A stretch of 42,607 nucleotides of DNA, taken from contig JAHEIL010000003.1 of the NCBI GenBank assembly GCA_024639405.1, positions 15,387 to 57,993 on the forward strand, read 5' to 3'. A program made the position numbers and the translations under genes. Source of the stretch: Crocinitomicaceae bacterium. Lineage in GTDB: Bacteria > Bacteroidota > Bacteroidia > Flavobacteriales_D > Crocinitomicaceae. Position 1 is the stretch's first letter; every line of letters starts with the position of its first letter. Below the pieces are notes generated by a model. That model searched no databases. It was not told the origin of the DNA and saw nothing but the letters and a program-made list of their open reading frames with translations. Below, piece by piece: positions 38,147 to 42,209 of the stretch.

Positions 38147-38233
38147 GGAGGGATGGGTGAGTGGCTGAAACCACCAGTTTGCTAAACTGACGTACGGGTA
38201 ACTGTACCGCGGGTTCGAATCCCGCTCTCTCCG
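38147..38233 (+). tRNA. tRNA-Ser (anticodon GCT)
   Basis: An 87-nt class II tRNA. The acceptor GGAGGGA pairs with TCTCTCC (one G-T wobble), the anticodon stem CAGT/ACTG holds loop TTGCTAA with anticodon GCT (reads AGC/AGT), there is a long variable arm (GTACGGGTAACTGTAC), and the T-arm is GCGGGTTCGAATCCCGC. The discriminator is G38233; CCA is not encoded. The last 16 nt (38218-38233) are repeated downstream in the 94-bp array. It appears to be transcribed as one unit with the array. A long antisense frame across it is spurious. Confidence 0.97.
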
Positions 38234-38525
38234 CAATGTAGTGAAGGAAGAAAGGGATGAGAACCTTGGTTCGAGACGTAGTCCATCGAAATCAATTTTG
38301 ATTGATGAGATAATCCCGCTCTCTCCGCAATGTAATGAAGGAAGAAAGGGATGAGAACCTTGGTTCGAGACGTAGTCCATCGAAATCAATTTTGATTGAT
38401 GAGATAATCCCGCCAACTTCTTTTGTGCCGCAATGAAGTGAAGGAAGAAAGGGATGAGAACCTTGGTTCGAGACGTAGTCCATCGAAATCAATTTTGATT
38501 GATGAGATAATCCCGCTCTCTCCGC
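38218..38525 (+). repeat. Tandem repeat array built on the 3' end of tRNA-Ser (94-bp units)
   Basis: Four copies of the tRNA tail AATCCCGCTCTCTCCGC start at 38218 (the native one), 38312, 38406 (altered) and 38509. Between them are three copies of a 77-bp spacer. Unit 1 (38218-38311) and unit 2 (38312-38405) are 94 bp and differ at one base (tgtagtg/tgtaatg). Unit 3 (38406-38508) is 103 bp because CTCTCT in the tail is replaced by the 15-nt CCAACTTCTTTTGTG. Each spacer can fold: GAAC-CTTG-GTTC (38261-38272), TTCGAGAC/GTC-ca-TCGAA around GTA (38270-38290), ATCAAT-TTTG-ATTGAT (38291-38306), all enclosed by GGGAT (38254-38258) pairing with ATCCC of the next tail (38313-38317). No terminator lies inside, so the array should be co-transcribed with the tRNA. 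Its function is unknown. Confidence 0.93.
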
Positions 38526-38529
38526 ATAT

Positions 38530-38802: not shown

Positions 38803-38876
38803 GGCCCCGTAGCTCAGCTGGATAGAGCAACTGCCTTCTAAGCAGTAGGTCTTTGGTTCGAATCCAAACGGGGTCA
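38803..38876 (+). tRNA. tRNA-Arg (anticodon TCT)
   Basis: A 74-nt tRNA reading AGA/AGG: acceptor GGCCCCG with CGGGGTC (one G-T wobble), anticodon stem ACTGC/GCAGT around loop CTTCTAA with anticodon TCT, and T-arm TTTGG-TTCGAAT-CCAAA. Discriminator A; CCA is not encoded. The last 16 nt (38861-38876) are repeated downstream at 39025. The antisense frame across it is a common spurious prediction. Confidence 0.96.
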
Positions 38877-38882
38877 CAAAAG

Positions 38883-38913
38883 AAATCTCGACACGTTGTG
38901 TCGGGATTTTTTT
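38883..38913 (+). terminator. Terminator of tRNA-Arg (also copied in the repeat)
   Basis: AAATCTCGACAC (38883-38894) pairs with GTGTCGGGATTT (38898-38909; one T-G wobble) across loop GTT, then T's to 38913. An identical copy lies at 39047-39077 in the second unit. Confidence 0.9.
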
Positions 38914-38965
38914 GTTTAACAGCGTCAAAAATTCATTTTTGTAAGCTAGTGAAACAAAAAAATCC
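38904..38965 (+). repeat. Long inverted repeat inside the tRNA-Arg unit
   Basis: GGATTTTTTTGTTT (38904-38917) and AAACAAAAAAATCC (38952-38965) are perfect inverted copies, 34 nt apart. Inside, CAAAAAT (38926-38932) and ATTTTTG (38935-38941) form a second stem. The same structure recurs in unit 2 (39068-39129). The left arm uses the T-run of the terminator, so an alternative fold could compete with termination. Confidence 0.75.
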
Positions 38966-39214
38966 AGTGATGCGCAGCAGCACAAGATTTTATGATTGGA
39001 TTGAACAATTGCGATAGGTTCTTCAATCCAAACGGGGTCACAAAAGAAATCTCGACACGTTGTGTCGGGATTTTTTTGTTTAACAGCGTCAAAAATTCAT
39101 TTTTGTAAGCTAGTGAAACAAAAAAATCCAGTGATGCGCAGCAGCACAAGATTTTATGATTGGATTGAACAATTGCGCCAGGAACTTTAATCATTTAACA
39201 GCGTCAAAAATTCA

Positions 39215-39738: not shown

Positions 39739-41064
39739 ATGAAAAAACTAACCTTTTTAACTGCAATACTTCTTGCAACAACAACATTTGCTCAAATTCC
39801 TAATTATGTCCCAACCAATGGCTTGGTTGGCTGGTGGCCTTTTAATGGCAATGCCAATGATGAAAGTGGAAATGGGAATAATGGAACGGTGAATGGCGCA
39901 ACCTTGACAAGTGATAGAAATGGGGTTGCAAATCAAGCGTATAGTTTTGATGGAATAAATGATTTTATATCTATGAATAACGCTCCTTTTATTAATGGAC
40001 CATTTACTATTTCAGGTTGGATAAAATATAATACTCAAAGCTTTAATCCTATTATCGGTTTAGGTGAATTAGGAGGGTCTAGTTTTAAAAGATTATATTT
40101 AGTTCCCGACTATTCATCAGGCAAACCAGGTATAGGTACTGCAGGATATAATGATATCACTTCTATAAGTAATGTTACTACAGTTAACGCTTGGAATCAT
40201 GTGGTAGTTGTTTTTAATAATTACAACTTGAATTCAGTTTATTTTTATGTGGGTGGAAATTTGTTAAGCTCTAATACAACTAATGGAAGTTCCATACCTT
40301 TTCCATTAAATAATACTGGCTTTACTATCGGTCGTCACACAGGCTCTGGCACAAATTATGCTGAAGCTAAAATTGACGACATAGGCATCTGGAACAGAGC
40401 ATTAACAGCTTGTGAAATAAAAGACTTATATCACTCTCAATTAGGGTATACGACAATCAATGCTGGTCTTGACCAATTTAGCTGTGTAGGAGAAGATGTT
40501 ACTTTACAAGGTGTAGGCGGTAATGCTTTAACATGGAATAATGGAGTAATCAACAATACTCCTTTTGTTCCAACTCAAACCAGTTCTTATATTTTGACAG
40601 GAACAGATTCTATTGGTTGTATTGGTTCAGATACAGTTACTGTTTTTGTTTCAGAATCTTCTTCCTCTTCCCAAACCCAAACAGCACTAGACACCTACAC
40701 CTGGCCAGTCAACAACCAAACCTACACGCAAAGCGGGACGTATTCAGACACCTTAGTGAACGCAGCGGGTTGTGATAGCATTGTAACCTTGAATTTAACC
40801 TTGAGCTACACTGGCATCAACGAATTGAACGCTTCTCAATTAGTGGTATCTCCCAACCCAACAAAAGACAATTTCTCTATTTCAGGTTTAGAATTATTGG
40901 GAACGATCACTTCATTAGAAATTAAAGACGCTGCTGGTAAAGTAGTAAAAGTACTCGATCCAACAACTACCAACTTTTCATGTGTTGGTTTAAAAGCGGG
41001 TGTTTACTTTTTAAACATTACTTCTAATAAATTAGAACGAGTAATTAAAATCATAAAAGAATAA
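39739..41064 (+). CDS. LamG-domain T9SS cargo protein, first of two tandem copies
   Basis: A 441-residue secreted protein: signal peptide 1-18 (ends TTFA), then LVGWWPFNGNANDESGNGNN, the typical start of a LamG/concanavalin-like jelly-roll domain (about 25-235) that usually binds sugars or proteins. A short Ig/PKD-like domain with SYILTGTDSIGCIGSDTVTV follows (about 240-310), then a Ser-rich linker and the QTALDTYTWPVNNQTYTQSG module (about 312-360), and a T9SS type A sorting domain (SPNPTKDNFSISGLELLG to RVIKIIKE). Residues 1-70 and the last 130 or so are nearly identical to the next protein, while the LamG core differs. The extra Ig-like domain is missing in copy 2. The stop is 2 nt before the second gene's ATG. 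Confidence 0.9.
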   Translation: MKKLTFLTAILLATTTFAQIPNYVPTNGLVGWWPFNGNANDESGNGNNGTVNGATLTSDRNGVANQAYSFDGINDFISMNNAPFINGPFTISGWIKYNTQSFNPIIGLGELGGSSFKRLYLVPDYSSGKPGIGTAGYNDITSISNVTTVNAWNHVVVVFNNYNLNSVYFYVGGNLLSSNTTNGSSIPFPLNNTGFTIGRHTGSGTNYAEAKIDDIGIWNRALTACEIKDLYHSQLGYTTINAGLDQFSCVGEDVTLQGVGGNALTWNNGVINNTPFVPTQTSSYILTGTDSIGCIGSDTVTVFVSESSSSSQTQTALDTYTWPVNNQTYTQSGTYSDTLVNAAGCDSIVTLNLTLSYTGINELNASQLVVSPNPTKDNFSISGLELLGTITSLEIKDAAGKVVKVLDPTTTNFSCVGLKAGVYFLNITSNKLERVIKIIKE

Positions 41065-41066
41065 CC

Positions 41067-42209
41067 ATGAAAAAACTAACCTTTTTAACCGCAATACTTC
41101 TTGCAACAACAACATTTGCTCAAATCCCCAATTATGTTCCAACCAATGGCTTGGTTGGCTGGTGGCCCTTTAATGGCAATGCCAATGATGAAAGTGGTAA
41201 TGGGAATAATGGAACGGTGAATGGAGCAACGTTGACAAGTGATAGAAATGGCATTGCAAATAAGGCTTATAGTTTTGATGGTTTGGATGATTATATAAAT
41301 ATTTTATATTCAAATATATTGCATGGTCAAAAAGGTTCAATAAATACTTGGATTCAAACAAATGGTAATTTCACAAGTCAAAAATCAATATTTTCTCAAT
41401 CATCTGGTAGACCTCAACTTGTAGCTGAAAGTCAAGGAGCAAATGGTAACCAAAGCTCAAACAGTGCTGCTATACATTGGAAATCAACAAATGGACTTTT
41501 TCCTTGTGCACAAACTACTTCATCAGTAGATAATAGTGAATGGATAATGATTACAGCGCTATATTCAGTTGATAGTTTTAAAATATTTGTAAATGGTAAC
41601 TTTGAAGCAATATCAATTACAAATTTAATTCAAGATAATTGTAGTCTTAATGATTTTCAAATTGGTGGAATATATAATTTAAATTCAAATTGTGGCCAAA
41701 GTACTGGTTTTTCACAAATGTTCAATGGTAAAATTGATGATATCGCTTTTTATAACCGCGCCCTAACAGATTGCGAAATCAAAAACCTATACATTGGTGG
41801 AGTTCCAAACTCTTCCCAAACTCAAACAGCTCTAGACACCTACACGTGGCCAGTCAACAACCAAACTTATACACAAAGTGGAACGTATTCAGATACTTTG
41901 GTGAACGCAGCAGGTTGTGATAGCATTGTAACCTTGAATTTAACCTTGAGTTACACAGGCATCAACGAATTAAACGCATCGCAGTTAGTGGTTTCTCCCA
42001 ACCCAACAAAAGACAATTTCTCCATTTCAGGCTTAGAATTATTGGGAACGATCACTTCTATAGAAATTAAAGACGCTGCAGGTAAAGTAGTAAAAGTACT
42101 CAATCCAACAGCTACCAACTTTTCATGTGTTGGTTTAAAAGCGGGTGTTTACTTTTTAGTAGTTACCTCTAATAAAACAGAACGCGTAATTAAAATTATA
42201 AAAGAATAA
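41067..42209 (+). CDS. LamG-domain T9SS cargo protein, second tandem copy
   Basis: A 380-residue secreted protein with the same layout: signal peptide, LamG domain (about 25-240, ending in the typical FNGKIDDIAFYNRAL), the QTALDTYTWPVNNQTYTQSG module, and a T9SS type A domain (to RVIKIIKE). Its first 70 residues match copy 1 with only a few changes (for example NGIANKAYSFDGLDD for NGVANQAYSFDGIND), and the DNA is about as close. The LamG middle is very different, with more Cys and Gln. The Ig/PKD-like domain of copy 1 is absent. The conserved ends with a divergent core suggest duplication followed by selection or recombination of the binding region. It is presumably translated from the same message. 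Confidence 0.9.
   Translation: MKKLTFLTAILLATTTFAQIPNYVPTNGLVGWWPFNGNANDESGNGNNGTVNGATLTSDRNGIANKAYSFDGLDDYINILYSNILHGQKGSINTWIQTNGNFTSQKSIFSQSSGRPQLVAESQGANGNQSSNSAAIHWKSTNGLFPCAQTTSSVDNSEWIMITALYSVDSFKIFVNGNFEAISITNLIQDNCSLNDFQIGGIYNLNSNCGQSTGFSQMFNGKIDDIAFYNRALTDCEIKNLYIGGVPNSSQTQTALDTYTWPVNNQTYTQSGTYSDTLVNAAGCDSIVTLNLTLSYTGINELNASQLVVSPNPTKDNFSISGLELLGTITSIEIKDAAGKVVKVLNPTATNFSCVGLKAGVYFLVVTSNKTERVIKIIKE

Follow-up and report, generated by a model that had tools for sequence, protein, structure and literature searches.

RtT-like tandem units behind a Crocinitomicaceae tRNA-Ser(GCT) gene: a possible tRNA-linked RNA or selfish repeat

The window analysed in this study, a 42,607-nucleotide stretch of the genome of a Crocinitomicaceae bacterium, carries three tandem units directly behind a tRNA-Ser(GCT) gene. 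Each unit begins with a spacer and an arm antisense to the T-arm of the tRNA and closes with the 3′ end of the same tRNA, and units of this kind also follow tRNA and tmRNA genes in other phyla. These observations suggest that a tRNA-linked RNA, or else a selfish repeat, has been overlooked. The array and the neighbouring repeats are arranged as follows:

38147-38234, forward strand: tRNA-Ser(GCT), the host gene; its tail (38218-38234) runs from T-loop A58 to past the discriminator
38235-38328, forward strand: unit 1, closing with an exact tail copy (38312-38328); covariance model R1 scores 60.3 bits at 38246-38326
38255-38265, forward strand: GGATGAGAACC, the antisense T-arm core of unit 1
38329-38431, forward strand: unit 2, with an interrupted tail copy (38406-38431); R1 scores 54.5 bits at 38340-38420
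38432-38525, forward strand: unit 3, closing with an exact tail copy (38509-38525); R1 scores 60.3 bits at 38443-38523
38803-38877, forward strand: tRNA-Arg(TCT) of the same cluster, which bears a second, different tail repeat
38861-39188, forward strand: two 164-bp direct repeats (97%) from the tRNA-Arg tail onward, with an exact tail copy at 39025-39041

The three units measure 94, 103 and 94 bp (units 1, 2 and 3) and are 92-100% like unit 1 across 99 nt. The last 17 nucleotides of tRNA-Ser(GCT), AATCCCGCTCTCTCCGC, recur exactly together with the next A at 38312-38329 and 38509-38526, whereas the copy starting at 38406 reads AATCCCGC, followed by an insert and then CCGC. The original prediction had counted three further tails; two stand as exact copies, and the third is interrupted. 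The spacings of 94, 94 and 103 that it gave for the tail starts are correct, and its view that no terminator breaks the array agrees with a terminator scan that found no terminator-like sites within 38235-38526. The segment 38094-38123 presumably represents a promoter, as it resembles the Bacteroidetes TTG/TAnnTTTG type; it is not among the predictions of a sigma-70 promoter scan.

In unit 1, GGGAT (38254-38258) pairs with ATCCC (38313-38317), and GAACC pairs with GGTTC (38268-38272), with four of these five latter pairs present in the predicted fold. The closing GGGAT/ATCCC pair and the internal hairpins proposed earlier do appear in the single-sequence fold, yet this fold alone is unremarkable (z -0.73). 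Structure in the window units is supported because relatives covary, and not because of any single fold.

Downstream of the array lie tRNA-Pro and then tRNA-Arg. The 164-bp repeat at tRNA-Arg(TCT), which holds a T-rich hairpin stretch and then GGATTGAAC...GGTTCTTC ahead of its tail copy, looks by eye like a simpler arrangement of the same kind as the tRNA-Ser units, and exact Arg tail copies are also seen in relatives (L007, L018, L025). Further along, at 39739-42209, two neighbouring and similar secreted-type proteins (441 and 380 aa; Laminin_G_3 and Por_Secre_tail in Pfam) have the same ends and probably represent a recent tandem duplication. Elsewhere in the genome, on another contig, a fourth unit follows tRNA-Ser(GGA) and closes with the own, different tail of that tRNA; a covariance model search at E up to 0.1 reveals no units in this genome beyond these four.

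The general anatomy of a unit is a spacer, an antisense T-arm (3 nt, GGAUGAGAACC and ~3 nt), GGUUCGA, variable hairpins, and AAUCC with a copy of the 3′ strand of the host tRNA. The 5′ arm (3 nt, GGATGAGAACC and ~3 nt) resembles the reverse complement of nucleotides 49-65 of the host T-arm, except at a conserved central GA that would face the GA of the T-loop. This arm had escaped the original prediction, as had the wide distribution of the element and the terminator-like hairpin that often lies between tRNA and core elsewhere.

Over many units, the arm is matched to its host. In a set of 95 listed units from which duplicates and unreadable T-arms had been dropped, the three nucleotides ahead of GGAT complement the three nucleotides past AATCC at 173 of 285 positions (shuffle mean 95; none of 2000 shuffles reaches the observed value). 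Where the host T-stem and the unit's own partner differ, the nucleotides past GAACC match the host at 21 positions, the unit itself at eight and neither at 13 (28 units with loops of 6 or more, from 86 distinct listed units). A mere copy of the 5′ strand of the T-stem is disfavoured as the source of the arm, since at G-U positions of host T-stems (86 distinct listed units) the arm complements the tail by Watson-Crick pairing in 21 cases and equals the 5′ strand in five, with seven other cases. Decay of a tandem tRNA duplication is rejected because the T-arm is inverted within the unit and the core is common to several phyla. We also considered an integron-like crossover at G/TT of the T-arm, with attC boxes as the model, and set it aside; by hand alignment, identity begins at A58 and not at TT.

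Helices in related units show covariation. Among 27 Sphingobacterium units, 95.5% of cells are paired, against 90.3 in shuffled sets. In six pairs both partners change, compared with 3.1 in shuffled data (six of 500 shuffles reach six), and there are 29 double-change cells compared with 6.8, a count reached by none of 500 shuffles and by no slid version, all of which give 7 or fewer. The original prediction had named compensatory changes in homologs as a check, and they are present in these units. The second helix is uninformative in this comparison because the search pattern fixes it; in the window's genus, this helix is formed from quite different sequences, GAACC/GGTTC versus GTCCGTC/GACGGAT. 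A structured, tRNA-linked element with a repeated tRNA 3′ end, as had been proposed, is supported, and its relatives show covariation.

To chart the distribution of such units, GTDB species genomes were scanned with the pattern GGATGAGAACC-N(0-20)-GGTTCGA-N(30-60)-AATCC, which recovered at least 117 stretches, a sample neither complete nor random. On re-matching, 116 of the 117 listed stretches contain at least 129 units. Among the matches listed, 96 of 129 units have a tRNA or tmRNA gene that ends within 600 nt upstream on the same strand, and two of 129 have one on the opposite strand. The hosts of these 96 listed units are tRNAs for Ser (47), Pro (15), Lys (6), Arg (6), Cys (5), Tyr (4), Gln (3), Thr (2), Met (1), Asn (1) and Val (1), as well as tmRNA (5), and the Sphingobacterium units, which are kin, weigh on these counts. 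The exact 17-nt tail of the unit's own gene recurs within 260 nt in 63 of the 96 listed units, and in 70 with at most one mismatch, whereas a random other tail recurs exactly in none and with one mismatch in four. Genes for tmRNA carry units at L053, L085, L113, L137 and L222, with exact copies of the tmRNA 3′ end at L085, L113 and L222 and not at L053 or L137. The remaining 33 of 129 listed units lack a tRNA on their own strand within 600 nt; of these, 19 begin less than 300 nt into their stretch, and 14 had room for such a gene; one unit that lacks a tRNA (L098) is probably a chance match.

The taxa among the matches listed include Bacteroidota and Verrucomicrobiota groups, Gemmatimonadetes, Neomarinimicrobiota, Lentisphaeria, Alpha- and Gammaproteobacteria, Gracilibacteria and another member of the Patescibacteria, along with one MAG each of Clostridia, Cyanobacteria and Nanoarchaeota; single contigs of MAGs may be misbinned. 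In the Nanoarchaeota MAG (L060), GGATGAGAACC...GGTTCGA is seen directly behind tRNA-Gln and again behind a tail copy, and this unit is possibly archaeal or possibly misbinned. The strict pattern has no matches in viral contigs, which led us to reject a virus-borne element.

A covariance model built from 50 units (R1) detects units in at least 13 of the 26 genomes of the genus (E up to 0.1). With strict filters and E up to 0.01, it finds them in at least 16 of 296 Bacteroidota genomes, own genome included, and a search of the same sensitivity finds no unit in the other 280; these counts are lower bounds, as a divergent unit in G022 was missed. Outside the window's own genome, R1 identifies 29 places in 19 regions (one place read per region). 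A tRNA lies upstream in 18 of the 19 regions, each of these 18 has an exact 17-nt tail copy, and the remaining region (L212) lacks a tRNA. An origin by chance or by faulty assembly is rejected, given that units stand behind the same tRNA in several genomes and also occur in other phyla. Chance is excluded because the fourth unit ends in the own tail of tRNA-Ser(GGA) and because tRNA-Ser(GCT) is followed by units in further members of the genus too.

The original prediction had likened the array to the rtT repeats of E. coli while holding the sequences to be unrelated. The likeness is borne out, and the supposed lack of sequence relationship is contradicted by the Rfam model of RtT RNA (RF00391, E. 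coli rttR), which aligns over its full length (positions 1-130, core motif included) with 38236-38330 (21.2 bits) and with 38433-38527 (18.9 bits). Unit 2 has no match to this model at E up to 3. Because the scores stay under the gathering score of 45 bits, which is not reached in the window, we describe the window units as RtT-like and not as members of RF00391 as curated. Their layout is that of RtT, in that they lie behind a tRNA gene and close with a copy of its 3′ end. Over 60 genomes, own genome included, the RtT model yields 17 matches (best 30.3 bits), and none of the 60 genomes has a match above the cut-off. When judged one by one, 15 of the 17 are units, and 14 of these 15 lie within ~150 nt behind a tRNA or tmRNA gene; the other unit (G032:C206) has tail copies and no tRNA in the 1.7 kb read. 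An exact tail copy is present in eight of the 14 tRNA-linked matches, and the other six (G040 and G051) have no recognisable full tail copy while keeping all or most of its T-stem part. The remaining two matches (G004:C17 and G008:C44) are coding-like by eye, with no tRNA in the 1.7 kb read.

At Rfam cut-offs, RtT is recognised in three of six gammaproteobacterial scan loci (Pectobacterium, Amphritea and Marinobacterium; 46.4-75.9 bits) and in none of 14 loci from groups outside the gammaproteobacteria, among 20 in total. In the tyrT/tyrV loci of E. coli K-12, this core also lies between tails, and the annotation of E. coli rttR gives an RNA whose 3′ end is the CCA of a tail copy. The literature consulted describes RtT from Gammaproteobacteria as a by-product of tRNA operons. 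RtT RNAs are reported to be expressed in Actinobacillus, where two of them are sited upstream of tRNA genes (PMC4986893), and to be upregulated at low temperature in Thioalkalivibrio (PMC8092127), and rtT-like sequences are reported in BIMEs upstream of protein genes in Enterobacteria (PMC2965389). E. coli RtT is cited as being freed as RNA from the tRNA transcript (PMC4986893) and as modulating the stringent response (PMC4986893; PMC2965389). The central GA of the units is taken to be the tandem GA motif noted in RtT by Rivas (PMC7657543). In the partly surveyed literature, with subscription papers outside the survey, we found no recognisable description of such units outside Gammaproteobacteria.

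Comparisons within the genus reveal gain or loss of whole units. The tRNA-Ser(GCT) gene was found in 20 of 26 genus genomes. By eye, units follow it in ten genomes and are absent in five (G004, G006, G012, G013 and G015), while G003 has a core and then the contig end, and G010 has other content at this site; the survey leaves out G005, G021 and G023. Units are present or absent as blocks of spacer, core and tail. The flanks past the last tail of the empty site in G004 and the two-unit site in G008 differ at 2 positions in 78 nt, and the empty G006 flank aligns more loosely with that of the window array. In G008, G011, G016 and G024, the acceptor strand of the tRNA is altered and the tail copies carry the same change, so the tails evolve in step with the tRNA. 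Mobility of units between tRNA genes is suggested; in one Lishizhenia MAG, the variable regions of tRNA-Pro and tRNA-Ser units are 97% alike, but for Sphingobacterium units the closest variable region frequently belongs to a different species, whether behind the same tRNA or a different one. Between tRNA-Ser and tRNA-Pro at L159 (G010), decayed partial tRNA-Pro-like copies in tandem can be seen by eye.

Although the helices covary, a decisive signal for the RNA strand was not found. The pairs that extend P1 at offsets 1-4 show no G-U excess (G-U 20 versus 39 expected, A-C 36 versus 58), as tallied for the 82 distinct units among 86 usable ones in the first 80 loci listed. The variable pairs of Sphingobacterium units include 15 G-U and eight A-C cases. 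The strand difference in folding energy mostly vanishes once dinucleotide content is controlled for (p 0.028), and z-scores do not differ between strands (p 0.20), with three of 82 units dropped (two of L060 and one of L098). The strand bias of folding energies is mainly compositional, and its apparent strength is seen only in the uncontrolled version.

A terminator-like hairpin between tRNA and core is present in 57 of 83 listed units, as compared with one of 83 shuffled spacers. This scoring covered 83 of the 96 tRNA-linked units, namely those no more than 100 nt from the tRNA, with the 13 others outside it. In Sphingobacterium and many others (L033-L149, e.g. L050, L085 and L095), the core sits just behind the terminator-like hairpin of the tRNA, such that the tandem unit reads tail, terminator and core. 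Transcription of units that have such hairpins ahead of the core would be weak.

Structure predictions for the tRNA joined to a unit suggest that the two could interfere. Unit 1 alone is predicted to fold with its own tail copy (-21.9 kcal/mol) and tRNA-Ser(GCT) alone as a cloverleaf (-35.7 kcal/mol). The predicted joint fold is a swap in which the T-arm and tail of the tRNA itself pair with the arm and the tail copy takes the acceptor strand, at -64.6 kcal/mol compared with -57.6 when the two fold separately. Averages over 56 units give a predicted host T-stem pairing of 0.65 when the tRNA stands alone, 0.13 when the native unit is attached and 0.53 when spacer and core are shuffled; for the acceptor the corresponding values are 0.96, 0.05 and 0.06. 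Since the acceptor pairing is also lost with the shuffled unit, the tail copy by itself accounts for some of the effect. An insulating role, in which the arm shields the tRNA from tail copies, is not supported, as the native unit lowers the predicted pairing of the host T-stem. The predicted equilibrium fold disrupts the tRNA, which would do harm if the tRNA did not fold beforehand; co-transcriptional folding would favour the cloverleaf over the swap.

We tentatively prefer, at somewhat short of an even prospect, to view the array as an RtT-like trailer RNA that is excised at tRNA-type 3′ ends, whose arm can pair with its own tail copy or with the host T-arm, and which is amplified by recombination between tails; its excision and function are what we infer. 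Because no terminator intervenes, the window units would be transcribed together with tRNA-Ser(GCT). The antisense arm and the unit's own split copy of the T-arm would form a helix that resembles a tRNA 3′ end, and tRNA 3′-processing enzymes might then cut past the real tail and past the tail copies. RNAs of ~95 nt would be released, by analogy with E. coli rttR, which ends at the CCA of a tail copy. Released or nascent RNA may also base-pair with the T-arm of the host tRNA, thereby tuning the maturation of that tRNA. Recombination between identical tails could shift copy number and keep the tails in step with the tRNA. A trailer-derived small RNA, one of the roles originally put forward, is a possibility.

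Counting in favour of an excised trailer RNA are the tail copies, the host-matched arm, the Sphingobacterium covariation, the link to RtT, the annotation of rttR, the reports of RtT expression, and the empty and filled sites. Against it stand the terminator-like hairpins, the lack of a G-U excess, the lost strand difference, the tRNA-disrupting fold, the patchy distribution, the six of 14 RtT-model matches without a full tail, and the placements described in PMC4986893 and PMC2965389. Selfish tandem DNA, also named in the original prediction, is a live rival and the main one. It would be a short element, selfish or neutral, that passes from one tRNA or tmRNA gene to another and multiplies by unequal recombination; its structure would help the element to be copied, for example as folded single-stranded DNA, and would not serve the host. 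Its patchy distribution and empty sites, tandem arrays, the within-genome likeness of variable regions at different tRNA genes in the Lishizhenia MAG, a P1 extension free of G-U excess, and the position of most scored units behind terminator-like hairpins all fit such a repeat. However, neither an enzyme nor a free form has been identified, viral contigs hold no strict-pattern matches, the likeness within genomes is not the rule in Sphingobacterium, and E. coli rttR is annotated as an RNA. On the terminator count we slightly lowered our estimate for the trailer RNA and slightly raised that for the selfish repeat, which we consider a serious possibility even though it probably does not apply.

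Two other explanations appear less promising. The unit might be a cis regulator of tRNA maturation, with an arm that captures the T-arm of the nascent pre-tRNA and a tail copy that replaces the acceptor strand, such that the precursor is switched off under some condition. This proposal draws on an arm that matches the host T-stem beyond what its own helix needs, on the more stable joint fold with its swap, and on the loss of predicted T-stem pairing relative to shuffled units, but nearest-neighbour energies take no account of tertiary structure and modifications in the tRNA or of co-transcriptional folding, the shuffled control likewise loses acceptor pairing, and units behind terminators would act rarely. 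We regard such a regulator as improbable. Even more doubtful, indeed very unlikely, are scars of attachment sites, that is, partial tRNA 3′ ends left by integrated islands. The tail copies do look like att repeats, and a direct repeat of the tRNA 3′ end is present. Moreover, four proteins picked by eye from 13 tRNA-less loci comprise three tyrosine integrases (L073, L074 and L106) and one Fic protein (L134), and some tRNA-less units thus adjoin integrases, as if islands integrate at these tails. However, scars would explain neither the conserved core nor the tandem 94-bp units with their host-matched antisense arm, and they are disfavoured by a core common to several phyla. None of the nine ORFs that overlap 34500-42607 matches an integrase family (Pfam). 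At L073, L074 and L106, islands with tyrosine integrases appear inserted between the tRNA and the array, leaving the array with no nearby tRNA.

The same layout at Ser, Pro, Lys, Arg, Cys, Tyr and other tRNA genes and at tmRNA genes in many phyla makes function testable in many organisms. The units would then represent a general RNA regulator linked to tRNAs or, alternatively, a selfish element bound to the T-arm, and repeated tRNA tails need not always be island scars. A bolder proposal, which we consider unlikely, would unite all of these units as a single pan-bacterial family on the T-arms of tRNAs and tmRNA, composed of an antisense arm and a 3′ end copy, that moves between hosts while re-matching both and acts as an arm-swapping RNA, with E. 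coli rtT as one branch.

Among known systems, tRNA attachment sites of integrative elements share with the window array a duplicated block that runs from the T-loop to the 3′ end, although the units are ~94 bp, lack genes, and have a conserved core and an antisense arm. If released, the units would resemble other sRNAs derived from tRNA 3′ trailers, for example the 3′ETS sponge of E. coli leuZ, in being RNA freed from a tRNA precursor; those sRNAs are not known to carry tail copies or an antisense T-arm. The closest counterpart is RtT RNA. The window units differ from it in their shorter variable region, their scores below the cut-off, their host (tRNA-Ser in place of tRNA-Tyr), a tail with no encoded CCA, and their occurrence in another phylum. 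They share with RtT RNA a tandem position behind a tRNA gene, with each unit closing in the tRNA 3′ end, the core GGAUGAGAA-C..GGUUCG..UAAUCC, and a closing helix formed with the tail.
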